Positions 5,451 to 33,827 of a DNA stretch of 64,000 nucleotides are shown one piece after another. The stretch spans positions 62,001-126,000 of the forward strand of contig JAJYSV010000003.1 of assembly GCA_021793405.1 (NCBI GenBank), written 5' to 3'. Below the pieces are notes generated by a model that was given only the letters and a program-made list of their open reading frames with translations, was not told the origin of the DNA and made no database searches. Made by a program: the position numbers and the translations under genes. Position 1 is the first letter of the stretch. The number at the start of each line of letters is the position of its first letter. Origin of the DNA: Acidobacteriota bacterium (GTDB lineage: Bacteria > Acidobacteriota > Terriglobia > Terriglobales > Acidobacteriaceae).

Positions 5451-6443
5451 TTGAACGCACTCATTACTGGCGGCGCCGGGTATATCGGGGGCACTGTCGC
5501 TCATTTGCTTATGGAAGCGGGGCATCGTGTCGTAGTCTATGACAATCTTTCCCATTCCCAACGTCCCTCGGTCCCGGCAGGTTCGGCCTTTGTCGAAGGG
5601 GAAGTCGGCGACCGGAAGAAACTGGAGGCCGTCCTCCGAAGTCATCCAATTGATGCTGTCCTGCATTTTGCCGCGCTCATTGAGGCCGGTGAAAGTATGC
5701 AGTGTCCTGAGCTGTATTTTAGCAATAATAGCGCGTCCTCGTTAGTTCTTTTTCAAGCAATGTTGGCCACCGGTGTCAAAAAGCTGGTTTTCTCCTCGAC
5801 AGCGGCTGTCTATGGCGAGCCGGAAACGACGCCGATTCTGGAAGAAGCGGCACTGTGTCCCACCAATCCTTATGGCGAATCCAAGCTGCTGGTGGAGCGG
5901 ATGCTTTTCTGGCTGCAGCGGATTCATGGGCTCCGCTATGCCAGCCTTCGCTACTTTAATGTCGCCGGCGCCATTGCCGGCCGGGGCGAGGCGCATGAGC
6001 CGGAATCCCACCTGATTCCGCTGGTGCTCGACGTGGCGCTGGGCCGGAGAAAGAGCATTCGCATCTACGGAACGGACTACGCTACACCGGATGGCACCTG
6101 CATCCGAGACTATATTCACGTGCGGGATCTGGCGGAGGCCCATTTGCGGGCATTGACGGCGCTGGAAGATCGAGAGCGCATGATTTACAACCTCGGTAAT
6201 GGCCAGGGTTTTTCTGTGCGGGAGATCATTGAGGCCGCCCGTCGCGTGACCGGACATCCCATCCCAGTGGAAGAGTGTCCGCGGCGCGCGGGGGACCCAG
6301 CGATTCTGGTGGCCAGTTCAGAGAAGATTGCCCGCGAACTTGGCTGGCGCCCGCGTTGTTCCGGATTGGATGCGATCATCTCCGATGCATGGCAGTGGCA
6401 CCAGGTGCGCTACGCTGCCAGAGAGTCCTCAATCACCCCCTAG
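5451..6443 (+). CDS. galE: UDP-glucose 4-epimerase
   Basis: Short-chain dehydrogenase-type epimerase interconverting UDP-glucose and UDP-galactose (NAD-dependent) for exopolysaccharide or LPS sugar supply. The Rossmann motif GGAGYIG begins at about residue 7. The catalytic serine region is SSTAAVYG, and the YxxxK pair is in NPYGESK. The length of 330 residues is normal. Start choice matters: AAAGGAG at 5435-5441 abuts the in-frame ATG at 5442 with no spacer, but is 9 nt from the TTG at 5451. Starting at TTG gives MNALITGGAGYIG, the family-typical beginning. I therefore prefer the TTG start. The gene stands alone, ahead of the VWFA trio. Confidence 0.92.
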   Translation: MNALITGGAGYIGGTVAHLLMEAGHRVVVYDNLSHSQRPSVPAGSAFVEGEVGDRKKLEAVLRSHPIDAVLHFAALIEAGESMQCPELYFSNNSASSLVLFQAMLATGVKKLVFSSTAAVYGEPETTPILEEAALCPTNPYGESKLLVERMLFWLQRIHGLRYASLRYFNVAGAIAGRGEAHEPESHLIPLVLDVALGRRKSIRIYGTDYATPDGTCIRDYIHVRDLAEAHLRALTALEDRERMIYNLGNGQGFSVREIIEAARRVTGHPIPVEECPRRAGDPAILVASSEKIARELGWRPRCSGLDAIISDAWQWHQVRYAARESSITP

Positions 6444-6654
6444 AATCACCGCTGGGAAATGCCTGGAATCGAAGCGGCCAACCAAATGGCCCGGAATTTC
6501 CTATGCTGTCGACATGGATTGCCTCCTGTTGACAAACAGCAGTAGCCTAAGTCGCTCGTGAGTACGTCTAATGACCAGCGCGGACCCCCTCGCGCCGCGA
6601 ACAGATGGAATGTTTGCGGCGCATACTGGATAAGTAGTGGTCCACGGAGGATGT

Positions 6655-7596
6655 ATGGCGACGAAACGCAGTGCGAGTGCGGTTCTTGTAGCGGCGATGG
6701 TGTGGATGGCCGCGGGATTGGTCTCCTCTGCCATGGGGCAGAGCCAGAATCCCGCCGGACAGGCGCAGTTGGTTGTTACCGCCAATGGGAAAAAATCGCG
6801 TTTAGCTCATCCTCTCTCGCAAAACGATATTGAAGTGAAAGTGAAGAATCGTCCGGCCAACATTGTGGGTTGGGCGCCATTCACCGGATCCAATGACGAT
6901 CTGCAACTTGTATTTCTGTTCGACGATTCCTCGCGCATGTATCTGACGCAGCAAATTCCCGCGCTGAGAAAATTCATCGAGGCCCTTCCGCCCTCGGCTG
7001 CTGTGGGGGTTGCCTATATGCAATATGGAAATTATGTGATGGCACGACCCATGACGAAGGACCACATGCTGGCGGCGAAATCCTTGCGTGTGACACTCGC
7101 GATCCCAGGGATCAGTGGCAGTCCCTATTTTTGCCTGTCGCAACTGGCCAAGCATTGGCCTTCCAAGGAGCCGAGCTCGCGCCGCGTCGCCTTTATGGTG
7201 ACCAACGGAGAAGATCCGTATTACCCGCACCGGGATCTTCAAGATCCGTACCTGCGCAATGCAATTGAAGATACCCAAAAAGCCGGGCTTCTCGTCTATA
7301 CCCTTTATTTCGGGGAAAAGAGTCGAATGAATCAGGGCTACACCGGCATTGTGATTGGCCAAAATTACCTGCTGCAAGTAGCGACCGCGACCGGCGGTGA
7401 TTTCTACCAATTGGGGTTGGGCAGTCCAGTGTCGTTCGAGCCGTTCTTAGATCAGTTTCGTCAGTCGCTGGACAATCAGTATTTGCTGACCGTTACTACC
7501 GCCGATTCGGGTTGGCTCAACGTCAGCGCAAAGTCGAAGGTTCCCGGGGTAAAACTCGTAACCGCCAGAACAATCTATATCGCCAAAGACAAGTGA
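6655..7596 (+). CDS. VWFA-related acidobacterial protein, copy 1
   Basis: A 313-residue exported protein of the VWFA-related family known mainly from Acidobacteria (TIGR03436 type). A signal peptide spans about residues 1-26 (cleavage near AMGQ), followed by a beta-rich prelude and a von Willebrand A-type domain starting near LQLVFLFDDSS. The metal-site DxSxS motif is only partly kept (DDSSR). A conserved block GSPYFCLSQLAK and a TNGEDPYY segment are shared with the two following genes. The ATG is preceded by GGAGG. These proteins probably mediate extracellular protein-protein contacts; no ligand can be named. It is the first of three tandem paralogues. Confidence 0.8.
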   Translation: MATKRSASAVLVAAMVWMAAGLVSSAMGQSQNPAGQAQLVVTANGKKSRLAHPLSQNDIEVKVKNRPANIVGWAPFTGSNDDLQLVFLFDDSSRMYLTQQIPALRKFIEALPPSAAVGVAYMQYGNYVMARPMTKDHMLAAKSLRVTLAIPGISGSPYFCLSQLAKHWPSKEPSSRRVAFMVTNGEDPYYPHRDLQDPYLRNAIEDTQKAGLLVYTLYFGEKSRMNQGYTGIVIGQNYLLQVATATGGDFYQLGLGSPVSFEPFLDQFRQSLDNQYLLTVTTADSGWLNVSAKSKVPGVKLVTARTIYIAKDK

Positions 7597-29551: not shown

Positions 29552-29693
29552 ATTCGCGAAGGTGCGGAACTGAGTGGAGAATTTTTACCGGTTCTCCACA
29601 TGCGGCTCGGAGATACACTCGCTCTAGATGCCAGTGAAAAGCCAGCTTCGCTCCGCCGAACCAGAGACGCCGCGATCGAAACAAGCGGAGAAG

Positions 29694-30332
29694 ATGCGTT
29701 ATCTGCGCACCCTGATCTGCGGCGACAAACACGAACGGGCGGCGCGGCAACAGGGCGCCACCGTGATTGCCGGCGTGGATGAAGTAGGACGCGGAGCGTT
29801 ATTTGGGCCAGTGGTTGCGGCGGCCGTGATTCTCCCGGAGAAGACGCGTATCCGCGGCGTGCGCGACTCCAAGCAGTTGCTGCCGGAGGAACGAGAGCGC
29901 CTGGATGCCATCATTCGCAAGCGAGCGATCTCGGTTGCGATCGGTTTTGCGGATGCGGCCACCATCGACGCCATCAATATCCGCCGCGCGTCGCATCAAG
30001 CCATGCTGGCGGCCATTGCGCAGCTATTTCCGCAGCCGGATTTCCTGTTGATCGACGCCGAGCGCCTGGATACGCCGTGTTTGCAGAAAGCCATCATCTA
30101 CGGCGACTCCATCAGCATCTCGATTGCCGCCGCGTCCATCGTAGCCAAGGTCTATCGCGATGCGTGGATGTGCCGCTACCACGAGGAATATCCGCAATAC
30201 GGGCTGGCCTCGCACAAAGGCTACGGCACCGAGGAGCACCTGCGTGCCTTAGCCGAGCACGGACCGTGCCCGCTGCATCGCGCCACCTACGAACCTGTTC
30301 ACAGAGTCATCGAACTGCGCGGGAGTTGCTAA
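29694..30332 (+). CDS. rnhB: Ribonuclease HII
   Basis: Endonuclease that cleaves RNA-DNA hybrids and single ribonucleotides in DNA. Motifs are AGVDEVGRGALFGPV (catalytic Asp-Glu), LIDAERL (Asp) and VAKVYRDAWM (Asp), all intact. The end SHKGYGTEEHL is family-typical. The ATG at 29694 has GGAGAAG just before it and gives a 212-residue protein of usual size; an in-frame ATG at 29628 would add 22 residues without a ribosome-binding site. It is the last member of the rpsP-rnhB series and is followed at once by the restriction-modification island. Confidence 0.94.
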   Translation: MRYLRTLICGDKHERAARQQGATVIAGVDEVGRGALFGPVVAAAVILPEKTRIRGVRDSKQLLPEERERLDAIIRKRAISVAIGFADAATIDAINIRRASHQAMLAAIAQLFPQPDFLLIDAERLDTPCLQKAIIYGDSISISIAAASIVAKVYRDAWMCRYHEEYPQYGLASHKGYGTEEHLRALAEHGPCPLHRATYEPVHRVIELRGSC

Positions 30333-30402
30333 GAGATGCTCCAACAATGCGCTTGCATAAAAACCTATTACGGGTTATTTTAATGTTTGGAGGAATTTCC
30401 AG

Positions 30403-31281
30403 GTGGGGACACAGACGGCATTCAAGTTGGATGATCGCATCTTCGATATCTCCGCTCATCTAAAGCGTGGCTCATCGATTGAACCCTCATATGTTTCTGC
30501 ATTCGGTGCGCTCTTTTCTGCCGATTGCATGACCATGCTCCCTCAGATCAAAGACGCAGTCGTTGACACCGTGTTCGCCGATCCGCCATTCAATATCGGC
30601 AAAGAATACGGCCAAAGCTACAAAGACCAAAAGCCTGATAAGTATTACCTAGAATGGTGCAAGGCGTGGATCAAGGAGAGTGTCCGCACCATTAAGCCAG
30701 GTGGCGCATTCTTCCTTTACAACCTGCCCAAGTGGAACGTATTGCTAGGCGCGTACCTCACAGAACTCGGCATGGAATTTAGGCATTGGATTGCGATTGA
30801 AATCTCCACATCCCTTCCTATTCCGGGACGCTTGCATCCAAGCCACTACAGTCTTCTCTATTACACAAAGGGCAAACCAAAGACATTCAGGCGCGTTCGC
30901 ACGCCCATTCAGATATGCCGTCATTGTAGTAGAGAGGTGAAAGATTACGGTGGGCACCGCGATGCAATGAACCCTAAAGGCGTCAACCTCAAAGATGTGT
31001 GGACTGACATCCCTCCGGTTCGGCACTGGAAGTTCAAGTCAAAAGATCGAAAAGCAAATGCGCTTTCCACAAAGATTTTGGATCGAGTAGTAGAGATGTC
31101 CACGCTTCCCGGTGAATTGGTTCTTGATCCTTTTGGCGGTAGCGGAACCACCTTCGCAGTGTGCGAAAAGAAAGGTCGTGAATGGATCGGTGCGGAAATC
31201 GATTTTGGGCCGGAGATCATAGATCGCCTAGAAAGCGGCGGGATCCATTGCCACAAGAACGACGACTGTATCGATACTTAG
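30403..31281 (+). CDS. Beta-class DNA methyltransferase of a BamHI-like R-M system
   Basis: A 292-residue amino-methyltransferase (N4-cytosine or N6-adenine). The catalytic motif IV DPPF is at residues 60-63 and precedes the AdoMet-binding motif I DPFGGSGTT at 242-250, the order of the beta class. Between them is the probable target-recognition region with a CRHC pair near 174-177. The GTG start has GGAGG 9 nt upstream. It converges with the endonuclease gene and their stops share 4 bp (TTAG). By pairing with a BamHI-family endonuclease it should protect GGATCC or a related site; this is inference. Its A+T content is visibly higher than flanking genes, which suggests transfer. Confidence 0.88.
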   Translation: MGTQTAFKLDDRIFDISAHLKRGSSIEPSYVSAFGALFSADCMTMLPQIKDAVVDTVFADPPFNIGKEYGQSYKDQKPDKYYLEWCKAWIKESVRTIKPGGAFFLYNLPKWNVLLGAYLTELGMEFRHWIAIEISTSLPIPGRLHPSHYSLLYYTKGKPKTFRRVRTPIQICRHCSREVKDYGGHRDAMNPKGVNLKDVWTDIPPVRHWKFKSKDRKANALSTKILDRVVEMSTLPGELVLDPFGGSGTTFAVCEKKGREWIGAEIDFGPEIIDRLESGGIHCHKNDDCIDT

Positions 31282-31871
31282 CCTTTTGCTCTTCCGTCAG
31301 TTCCTTTCGGAATCTTCGCCACATCCTTGCTTTCCGCATCATGCTCAATCACGACAATCTCAAGGACGCCTGATTTACAAGGTACCGACTTCCATAGACC
31401 CAAGTACGGTTCCAACTCCCGATAATTTCCAATTCGATCAGTCAGGTAGATATACAGATTCCGCGAAGGAACAATAAGAACGCCGGCAGCGATAACCTTA
31501 TCGGCAACGAGCATCGTGAGTTTGTTCATTGACCGATGGCTCGAAGAGATGTTACCAGTCTCCCATTCAGCGACAATAAAGCCTTCAGGTCCGGCGATCA
31601 CCGCATCGAAATCGCCCAGATTTTGGCCGAGTAGGTTCTTAGCGGGTCCTTCGATAGTCCACCCACGTTTCTTCAACTCCGCAATGAACTCTTTTTTTAT
31701 CGGAACTACGCCATTTCCGTCGATTTCTGGATGAATTGTGAATGCGCCGCTGTTGGGCGGCCAATCGCATTTCTTCACGGCATCGTGAATTACCGCTCTG
31801 GTTTGTTGCCAATGCTCTGATTTTGAGTAAGGGCCGCAGCTCAAAACCGTTTCTACGTGGACGATTTTCAT
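31278..31871 (-). CDS. BamHI-family type II restriction endonuclease
   Basis: A 197-residue protein that, compared from memory with BamHI, aligns along most of its length: NGVVPIK (53-59, with Lys59 matching BamHI Lys61), a DFD segment with Asp89 matching Asp94, EWETGNISSSHRSMNKL with Glu102 and Glu104 matching Glu111 and Glu113, LTDR...ELEPY, and IPKGTDG near the end. All catalytic acidic residues are therefore kept. It should cut GGATCC or a near variant in unmethylated DNA. Its start overlaps the stop of the XRE gene by 4 bp, so the two are translationally coupled. It ends convergently against the methyltransferase. Confidence 0.88.
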   Translation of the reverse strand: MKIVHVETVLSCGPYSKSEHWQQTRAVIHDAVKKCDWPPNSGAFTIHPEIDGNGVVPIKKEFIAELKKRGWTIEGPAKNLLGQNLGDFDAVIAGPEGFIVAEWETGNISSSHRSMNKLTMLVADKVIAAGVLIVPSRNLYIYLTDRIGNYRELEPYLGLWKSVPCKSGVLEIVVIEHDAESKDVAKIPKGTDGRAKG

Positions 31872-32200
31872 TCTGTCTCCCGATAAAACTTGGCGAGCAA
31901 TTTTACGGGATCGATGCCGAGCGCTTTAGCCACCTCGCCGAACTCAACGATATCTAGGCGGCGCTCTCCGCGTTCATATTTCGAGACAAAGGATTGAGGG
32001 CGACTTAGACGACGAGACAATTCCGCCTGGGTCAAGCCCGCGCGCTTGCGGACATCGACCAGCAATTCACGGAATCTCTTATACCCTATGTTCCCCACAT
32101 TATTGATCGCTTGAGCGAGTGTAGAATCTATCGCCGGATAACCCAAAATGGGTTCATCGCGACCACAGATAAGTTGCATGGCGCATTCGGCGAGTTTCAC
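31868..32200 (-). CDS. XRE-family regulator (probable controller protein of the R-M system)
   Basis: A 110-residue helix-turn-helix protein; the HTH lies at about residues 54-100 with LTQAELSRRLSRPQSFVSKYE. It is a little longer than typical R-M controller (C) proteins because of a 40-residue N-terminal part of unclear nature. It is translationally coupled to the endonuclease gene (ATGA-type overlap), the arrangement expected for a C protein that delays endonuclease expression. The start is uncertain: GTG at 32200 or ATG at 32179, neither with a clear ribosome-binding site. Only 22 bp separate it from the end of msrQ, so some read-through from msrPQ is possible. Confidence 0.8.
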   Translation of the reverse strand: MKLAECAMQLICGRDEPILGYPAIDSTLAQAINNVGNIGYKRFRELLVDVRKRAGLTQAELSRRLSRPQSFVSKYERGERRLDIVEFGEVAKALGIDPVKLLAKFYRETE

Positions 32201-32222
32201 AACGGGCTTTGTCGAAACCGTG

Positions 32223-32846
32223 CTAAGCGGTGACGGCGACTTTTTTCTTGCTGACGGCTTCTTTGGCCCACCATAGCGCCCGCGCCAGTAGCAGCACAGC
32301 GAGCACGACCGTCACCTTCCATGGAGTGCGCACGCCCGTCTTCACAATCCACCAGTAATGGATGACGCCTGCCGTCGCCGCGACATAGGCCAGACGGTGC
32401 AGCATCGTCCAGCGCTTGCCGCCCAGTTTGCGAATCGACCACGTGGTGGATGTCGCGGCCAGCAGGAACAAACACGTCCAGCCCAACATGCCCATGGTGA
32501 TGAAGGGGCGCTTGCCGATGTCATGCACCATCTCATGCACGTCGAAATTGGAGTAGAGCCACACCCACGTCGTCAGGTGCAGCATCGCATAGAAGAAGGC
32601 GAACAACCCCAGCATGCGGCGAAAGCGGATCAGCCATGCCAGGCGACGACTCAACCGCCGCACTGGGGTGACGGCAAGTGAGATCAGCAAAAAATACAGC
32701 GTCCAGAACCCAGTGGTGTGGGTGATGGTCGCCACTGGGTCCGGACCCAGCGAGTTGGTGAATCCCTGGTAGACCAACACCGCCAGCGGAATCAGACAGG
32801 CCGGGAACACGACGAATTTCAGGGCTACGATCGAGCGATTGGACAT
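32223..32846 (-). CDS. msrQ: MsrQ, haem-binding membrane subunit of MsrPQ
   Basis: A 207-residue inner-membrane b-type haem protein (YedZ) that passes electrons from quinones to the periplasmic methionine sulfoxide reductase MsrP. Six hydrophobic segments are visible. Haem-ligand histidines are in FAFFYAMLHL and RLAYVAATAGVIHY. The final Lys-rich tail KKKVAVTA is cytoplasmic. It starts 9 bp after msrP on the same strand, a two-gene operon. The stop lies 22 bp before the XRE regulator gene. Confidence 0.93.
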   Translation of the reverse strand: MSNRSIVALKFVVFPACLIPLAVLVYQGFTNSLGPDPVATITHTTGFWTLYFLLISLAVTPVRRLSRRLAWLIRFRRMLGLFAFFYAMLHLTTWVWLYSNFDVHEMVHDIGKRPFITMGMLGWTCLFLLAATSTTWSIRKLGGKRWTMLHRLAYVAATAGVIHYWWIVKTGVRTPWKVTVVLAVLLLARALWWAKEAVSKKKVAVTA

Positions 32847-32855
32847 GCGGGCGGT

Positions 32856-33827
32856 TTAAAAATCCTTGCGGAGATCCATTCCTTGATACATGGAAGCCAC
32901 CTGATCGCCGTAGCCGTTGAACATCAGCGTAGGCTGGCGGGCTTTCCAGAAAGGCGCGCCGATGATGCGCTCATATTTCTGGCTCCAGCGAGGATGATCG
33001 ACATTTGGATTCACGTTGGAGTAGAAGCCATACTCGTTCGGCGCGGACTCATTCCAGGTGGTGCGCGGCTGGTTTTTCACGAAGCGAATCTCGACCAGGG
33101 ATTTGGCTGACTTGAAGCCATACTTCCACGGCAATACGATGCGCACGGGCGCGCCATCCTGGTTCGGCAACGTCTGCCCATACAGGCCGAACGTGAGCAG
33201 CGTCAGCGGATTCATGGCCTCGTCCATCCGCAATCCTTCCGAATATGGCCAGTGAAGGTCGACGGTCCTGATCCATGGTTCCTCTTGCAGATTGTCGAGC
33301 GAAAGAAACTGCACATAGCGTGCGGAGCTGAGCGGCTCGCATTGCTGGATGAACTCCGAAAATGAGTAGCCGACCCATGGAATCACCATGCTCCACGCCT
33401 CGACGCAGCGATGCCGGTAGACGCGCTCCTCCAGGGGATGAGTTTTCATCAAGGCATCGATGTCGAAGACCTTCTTGCTTTTCACTTCACCGTCGACCTT
33501 CACGCTCCACGGACTGGTTTTCAGGCGCCAGGCGTTGTGGGAAGGATCGCTTTTGTCGGTGCCGAATTCGTAGAAATTGTTGTAGGTGGTAATGTCCTGG
33601 AACGAGGTCGGCGCCACGCCCGTCGTCGAATACTTGCTGGGAATCGTCGCCAGTTTTTCGGTGGCATGCACGCCTTCGCCGGGAGAAGCGATGTCCTTGA
33701 GCCGGTCCGCGCCGAACGCAGCTACGCCGAGAGCCGCGGCTCCGGTCATGAACTTGCGGCGGTTCATATAGTCGGACTTCGAAGTAATCTCCGACGACGG
33801 AATGTCGGACGGTTTACGAATCAGCAT
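32856..33827 (-). CDS. msrP: MsrP, molybdopterin methionine sulfoxide reductase
   Basis: A 323-residue periplasmic reductase (YedY) that repairs oxidised methionines in envelope proteins. A twin-arginine signal is present: [13 protein letters not shown] at about 22-34. The molybdenum-binding cysteine is in [11 protein letters not shown]. Other family blocks are [20 protein letters not shown] and [23 protein letters not shown] precedes the ATG at proper spacing. It forms an operon with msrQ. Nothing unusual was seen in its active-site region. Confidence 0.94.

Follow-up and report, generated by a model that had tools for sequence, protein, structure and literature searches.

The window, a stretch of 64,000 nucleotides from an Acidobacteriota bacterium, carries a 1.9-kb type II restriction-modification (R-M) island with three intact open reading frames (ORFs): a methyltransferase (M), an endonuclease (R) and a controller (C). 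We think it probable that this is an acquired system in which R cuts GGATCC, M protects the site, and a controller of the EcoRV type switches both the C-R genes and M. The switch is likely to be Esp1396I-like, assembled from EcoRV-type parts in a convergent layout. The first-pass annotation had proposed a BamHI-like restriction-modification-control system. R, M and a controller gene are indeed present, but controller and operator belong to the C.EcoRV type. The features are (+ and - denote the strand):

30327-30333: left copy of TGCTAAG, a 7-bp direct repeat at the island edge; includes the rnhB stop codon
30334-32220, no strand: R-M island between the convergent genes rnhB and msrQ; its flanks are adjacent in 5 of 8 relatives examined
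30353-30358, +: putative -35 element TTGCAT of the M promoter, 17 bp upstream of the putative -10; weak consensus
30362-30376: predicted operator OM, AACCTATTACGGGTT, occupying the M promoter spacer
30376-30381, +: putative -10 element TATTTT of the M promoter; 9 of 15 loci with OM likewise have TANNNT in this position
30403-31281, +: M, N6_N4_Mtase methyltransferase, 292 aa, motif IV DPPF, short form (ORF, Pfam, profile alignment)
31278-31281: tail-to-tail 4-bp overlap of the M and R stop codons
31278-31871, -: R, BamHI/OkrAI-family endonuclease, 197 aa (PF02923; OkrAI/BamHI alignment; five-homologue alignment)
31868-32098, -: C, XRE controller of the C.EcoRV type, 76 aa from the likely start GTG at 32098; the ORF is open to 32200
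32118-32123, -: putative -10 element TACACT of the C-R promoter, at the same distance from OL as the CATAAT hexamer in pLG13
32125-32139, -: weak proximal predicted operator OR, ATCCGGCGATAGATT, with 6 of 8 arm bases; abuts OL directly, as in pLG13
32140-32154: distal predicted operator OL, AACCCATTTTGGGTT on the - strand; contains the -35-like TTGGGT
32221-32227: right copy of TGCTAAG at the island edge; includes the msrQ stop codon

The ORFs reported by the first-pass annotation (30403-31281 on the + strand, 31278-31871 and 31868-32200 on the - strand) are all confirmed, and both 4-bp overlaps (31278-31281 between M and R, 31868-31871 between R and C) are real. There is no space for a terminator between R and M, hence their transcripts may overlap at the 3' ends.

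The island and its insertion spot

The island differs from its surroundings in composition. Its GC content is 0.495, compared to 0.575 in the rest of the window, which agrees with the earlier impression of an A+T-rich island. Among 1167 overlapping stretches of the same length elsewhere, none is as low in GC and none is as deviant in 4-mer usage.

We searched the genome of the window and those of 60 relatives (61 in all) with the region 29628-33827. It matched 54 of them, nearly always in the flanks. Outside the window's own genome two short matches fall within the island, one of 39 bp (G399) and one of 124 bp (G419). rnhB and msrQ were examined jointly in eight relatives, seven of the genus and one of the family; a ninth (L044) has no rnhB near msrQ, and two more genomes of the genus, G396 (no match) and G403 (partial match), were left out. 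The gap between the two genes is empty in five of the eight (L039, L041, L042 and L043 of the genus, L045 of the family) and filled with other genes in three, all of the genus (L037, L038 and L040). Hence we regard the gap as an insertion spot.

Within the genus this spot also receives different restriction genes. A NotI-family endonuclease occupies it in L038 (1.5e-52) and L040 (3e-55). The gap of L040 additionally contains a D12-class methyltransferase (1.3e-10), and that of L038 an extra 160-aa piece slightly above the cut-off for HaeII endonucleases. The 290-aa ORF in the gap of L037 has no Pfam or PADLOC match at the limits used. Ten relatives whose flanks were checked gave no match there to rnhB, msrQ or msrP.

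None of the eight relatives shares the island at the same place with matching composition. Either the island came in after the host lineage had separated from the relatives examined, or these relatives have lost it; composition favours gain. Because it is missing at the same place in these relatives and its composition is foreign, we read the gain as a transfer, as the first-pass annotation had suggested.

The repeat TGCTAAG at the edges occurs four times in the 64 kb (both strands counted). The flanking pair may be a target duplication, or it may be due to chance or microhomology. No tRNA was found between 25000 and 37000. A phage collection gave no match, and viral contigs gave none when searched with a single protein; an alignment query gave 10 viral contigs.

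The controller and its predicted operators

C matches HTH_3 (2.2e-10). A plasmid search with C matched the C gene of the EcoRV system on the E. coli plasmid pLG13, and in a BLAST alignment with C.EcoRV 35 of 93 aligned residues are identical (38%), partly in operator-derived sequence. C.EcoRV represents one of three prototype C-box families (as classified in PMC4824078). The recognition helix reads PQSFVSKYERGERRLD in the window C and PQSYISKIEQGERRVD in C.EcoRV, and it is of the RTFIS or RTYIS type in the three divergent BamHI-family loci that were aligned. A controller of the BamHI/PvuII type was considered and rejected, given the different recognition helix and the lack of a GACT box: in the 150 bp before the window's HTH the best match to GACT-N(2,3)-AGTC has 3 mismatches in 8. 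Judged by its PQS-type helix and the EcoRV C-box upstream, C is a C.EcoRV-type controller.

The ORF assigned to the XRE protein (31868-32200) exists, but the start at 32200 is probably wrong because it lies upstream of the putative promoter. We placed the start at the GTG at 32098, since the PILGYP residues, identical in the C.EcoRV ORF, are operator DNA read as protein; this GTG is likely to be the true start.

The promoter regions of window and plasmid resemble each other closely. The pLG13 DNA upstream of C.EcoRV reads AACCCATTTTGGGTTATCCCATTTTGGGG, and its first 19 bases are identical upstream of the window C (AACCCATTTTGGGTTATCC is common to both promoters). OL, the second ATCC-type site and the -10-like hexamer are equally spaced in the two. 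While pLG13 has a good second site, that of the window (OR) is weak, with 6 of 8 arm bases, and could be a product of chance. An EcoRV-type controller with tandem ATCC-type sites also occurs on the Aeromonas plasmid pAV7K (L142:2893-4103), where it precedes a different predicted type II endonuclease (PADLOC REase_II, 6.1e-46).

In the window AACCN7GGTT occurs exactly twice, at 30362-30376 and 32140-32154, which are the two promoters. With 0.60 sites expected and two or more in 11 of 100 shuffles, the sites are not rare by count alone; therefore their positions matter. The 4.6-Mb host genome has 45 such sites, compared to 70 for the reversed control. AACCYRNNNYRGGTT fits four of the 45, and two of these four are OM and OL. 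The stricter AACCYNTTTTGGGTTATCC is present in one of ten genus genomes, the window's own, once. Both putative promoters fit the consensus poorly. A generic promoter and terminator scan missed them and returned nothing above shuffles; terminator-like sites in the island numbered two, with 2.6 expected from shuffles.

To place the two sites in context we surveyed 95 loci. From genome contigs we obtained 293 pattern matches, of which 263 are relatives, and from viral contigs 10 relatives. The survey consists of the best 80 of the 263 genome relatives together with viral, plasmid and genome-search loci; L063, a duplicate of L002, was dropped. The loci (852,413 bp) contain 39 exact AACCN7GGTT sites, of which 22 lie in the promoter zones of C or M (10,290 bp). 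The density is 2.14 per kb in the promoter zones versus 0.020 per kb otherwise; the zones were set after the positions of the sites had been seen, which inflates the contrast, in our judgement not hundredfold.

A site with at most one mismatch is found at both promoters in 12 of the 95 loci: the window, L049, L050, L051, L053, L054, L055, L058, L059, L061, L062 and L094. The eleven others are titled Acidobacteria and relatives, Planctomycetes, Nitrospira, Deltaproteobacteria, Riflebacteria and Armatimonadaceae. The exact OM of L058 is cut off in the stretch used for the weight matrix and was seen in the exact-site listing. In other loci the site is clearly one-sided: on the M side in L048 and L129, and on the C side in L064, L085 and L130, of which L085 stops short of M. 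No recognisable OL accompanies the OM of L048, which by its R is the closest relative among the matches listed. For comparison, about 6% of random 150-bp stretches of the surveyed loci contain a site with at most one mismatch. Scattered one-mismatch sites, for example in L134 and L135 (which are identical), L003, L066, L072, L077 and L117, were not counted as operators; that of L134/L135 lies far outside the zones tagged for both genes.

We propose that the switch works as follows. On entry, M would be made immediately from its own promoter, and C and R only at a trickle. In the C-R promoter OL and the -35 overlap; C dimers would occupy OL first, so that C and R would be boosted after a delay. 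At a higher C level the weak OR would be filled and C-R limited. C at OM, in the spacer of the M promoter, would turn M down. Here Esp1396I, which operates with OM, OL and OR (PMC3758141), serves as the analogy for repression at OM, because C.EcoRV does not act directly on the M promoter, as far as PMC5333194 describes it. We infer C binding and the direction of regulation, and the OM step in particular from the position and conservation of the site. As a whole, C-based regulation of the island is well supported by comparison but unproven.

Alternatively, C could regulate its own C-R operon only. The OM palindrome would then be a relic or have no effect, and M would be controlled indirectly as in EcoRV. 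Such an arrangement fits L064 and L130, where the weight matrix shows a site on the C side and no good OM, and it fits the window itself, where OL outscores OM (23.3 versus 20.6). However, 6 of the 12 two-sided loci (L049, L050, L051, L053, L054 and L059) have an OM that outscores the site on the C side. Of the 15 loci whose OM has no more than one mismatch, 9 have a -10-like element (TANNNT) that begins at the last OM base, and a perfect OM is kept in both L048 and L129. We consider control of the C-R operon alone to be improbable, and prefer a controller that acts on both promoters.

This preferred circuit combines features of two known designs. With EcoRV on pLG13 the window shares the C protein, the recognition helix, the 19 identical promoter bases and the spacing. 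Unlike the window, EcoRV has an unrelated endonuclease (PF09233), a DNA adenine methylase and a divergent layout with one common regulatory region (pLG13 DNA; described likewise in PMC5333194). With Esp1396I and AhdI the window shares the convergent layout (as given in PMC5333194), and with Esp1396I a separate OM at the M promoter besides OL and OR at C-R (PMC3758141). Esp1396I differs in having GACT-type C-boxes and another class of C. The Esp1396I-like logic of convergent genes with separate operators at C-R and M is thus found in the window, as far as sequence can tell.

Endonuclease, methyltransferase and the expected target

R matches PF02923 with 2.3e-44 (151.4 bits, cut-off 22.8). Of the solved structures OkrAI (PDB 3odh) is closest with 2.7e-49, compared to 2.4e-20 for BamHI. 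Residues 27-195 of R align with OkrAI, and both proteins end at about the same place, yet the sequences are well diverged. The catalytic residues singled out by the first-pass annotation, Asp89, Glu102, Glu104 and Lys59, align with BamHI and OkrAI and are invariant in five aligned homologues, the window included. The stretch said to be shared with BamHI is present, but BamHI reads GNISSAHRSMNKL and differs from R at one residue. We take the base contacts of BamHI to be Asn116, Ser118, Arg122, Asp154, Arg155 and Asp196. The six aligned residues of R (Asn107, Ser109, Arg113, Asp145, Arg146 and Asp192) are all kept and are invariant in the five homologues. Because catalytic and presumed base-contact residues are kept, GGATCC is the expected target of R.

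The BamHI fold might instead serve a new specificity, the target of the enzymes being related to GGATCC but not identical with it (a shortened or shifted form, for instance). R is only 33% identical to a close BamHI relative on a Geobacillus plasmid, its target is predicted from sequence, and more star activity is reported for OkrAI (PMC9416302). Against a new specificity stand the six kept contact positions and the closest solved relative itself, since OkrAI is called a BamHI isoschizomer (PMC9416302, PMC4081073). We therefore regard a changed target as unlikely and keep GGATCC. Still less likely is a decaying or silent remnant that no longer restricts: some homologues do have endonuclease frames broken within the gene (L052, L109 and L112), but the three window frames are intact, and the catalytic residues and both operators are kept.

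M matches PF01555 (3.8e-39) and is 52-53% identical to the M genes that accompany a BamHI-family R on plasmids of Geobacillus and Desulfocapsa. A relative of M is found in the examined DNA of 84 of the 95 loci. M lacks the N-terminal extension of about 100 aa of the BamHI-lineage methyltransferases and starts at model position 74 of a profile that was built partly from the window M. M.BamHI is named as an N4mC methylase (PMC2890505), and by this kinship M probably protects GGATCC by N4-cytosine methylation.

The extension of the long M proteins is a possible built-in regulator. It matches HTH_31 in L002:2114-3355 (2.6e-6), gives a weak MerR match in L034:2381-3634, and has no HTH match in L068:3457-4659. 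Other arrangements occur as well. L127:2053-3338 contains two tandem BamHI-family endonuclease genes. In L067 a 455-aa DNA methylase (5616-6983; PF01555, motif SPPY) lies between R and M, and 11 other loci with a similar R-M gap may be BamHI-like systems with two methyltransferases. Relatives of the window M with 48-62% identity are found on Acetobacter and Klebsiella plasmids (L138, L139 and L140), and a search of these three plasmid records with R found no BamHI-family endonuclease.

On strong sequence evidence we place R and M, as a new member, in the OkrAI-like branch of the BamHI family. Within the phylum PF02923 is found in 3 of 396 genomes, the window's own included, and once in that genome. 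Among the matches listed, the five closest genome relatives of R have acidobacterial titles (Terriglobia, Solibacteraceae, Acidobacteria and Bryobacterales) and identities of 75, 73, 69, 68 and 67%. Relatives on viral contigs reach 70%.

The first-pass annotation had named BamHI of Bacillus as the known system and had read a distant homologue with this layout as a sign of transfer. The BamHI orthologue on the Geobacillus plasmid (CP128450.1), whose R matches BamHI with 7.9e-99, has the same R and M families as the window. Unlike the window, it is divergent, has a long 414-aa M with the N-terminal extension, and has a controller with another recognition helix and a GACT-type box. The BamHI system itself is called divergent, too (PMC5333194). 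Since this orthologue is divergent with a 414-aa M, the convergent layout and short M of the window are not those of the BamHI lineage. Descent from Bacillus BamHI is not indicated, because R is nearer to OkrAI and its closest listed genome relatives are acidobacterial.

The survey, in which layouts were called automatically, shows the same division. The long M with its extension is found in 20 of 22 divergent loci, and the short M in 44 of 45 near-convergent loci, the window included. In 12 further loci a short M lies about 1.38 kb downstream of R. The exact stop spacing of M and R in the window recurs in 22 of 46 convergent loci (the window and the duplicate L063 are counted in the 46).

We also considered whether the R-M system has caused a special loss of GGATCC in its host, and rejected it on genome-wide density and Markov ratio. 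The window contains 12 GGATCC sites, compared to 23.9 expected from shuffles. The Markov ratio in 140 kb of host contig is 0.68, rank 24 of 64 palindromes. At 182 per Mb the host genome has the highest density among six genus genomes, and for this reason we see no sign of long avoidance.

Possible exchange of controllers within the family

Controllers in the survey were labelled automatically with fixed cut-offs, and L129 is labelled as having none despite a controller hit. The counts of loci without C are upper limits, because the cut-offs missed controllers and some contigs end near R. Controllers were called in 63 loci, 20 with a PQS-type helix and 43 of the RT type. Exact AACCN7GGTT sites accompany 8 of the 20 PQS-type controllers and none of the 43 RT-type controllers; for the exact GACT box the numbers are 0 of 20 and 21 of 43.

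With one mismatch allowed, helix and operator type agree in 54 of 55 decided loci. There is one tie (L050), and seven loci are undecided. The single disagreement is L056, where a PQS-type helix is labelled PvuII-type owing to a misplaced anchor; an exact AACCN7GGTT lies 15 bp past that anchor. An earlier rule, which assigned ties to the EcoRV class and excluded L119 by hand, gave agreement in 55 of 56; L119 belongs to the GACT class (exact box). Four of the 20 PQS-type controllers (L002, L048, L060 and L079) have neither site at up to one mismatch. An early statistic on operator sharing did not separate pairs from the same locus from pairs across loci; the motif is common between loci, and the window anchor was misplaced.

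Quick trees require at least four changes of controller type on the R tree and at least three on the M tree; many forks in these trees are weak, and the R tree omits the three loci with a broken R. The pattern supports an exchange of controllers together with their operators. With about even probability, controllers in the BamHI/OkrAI family may be exchangeable cassettes: C and its operators would have been swapped between the PvuII and EcoRV types at least three or four times, and the EcoRV-type cassette would have become part of a convergent circuit in which the M promoter carries an operator for direct control.

In the literature covered, a convergent EcoRV-type circuit with an M operator was found for neither EcoRV nor BamHI; published C-box lists and the C.Kpn2I motif (a figure in PMC6237814) lie outside this comparison. 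In a modelling paper, the convergent circuit of AhdI and the divergent one of EcoRV stand for two controller designs whose features differ (PMC5333194). The individual parts of the island are known already, and it is their combination that is informative. Records of several phyla seem to contain convergent circuits that are run by an EcoRV-type controller and have an M operator of their own. Such circuits would be natural material for testing how the toxic enzyme is delayed after transfer.
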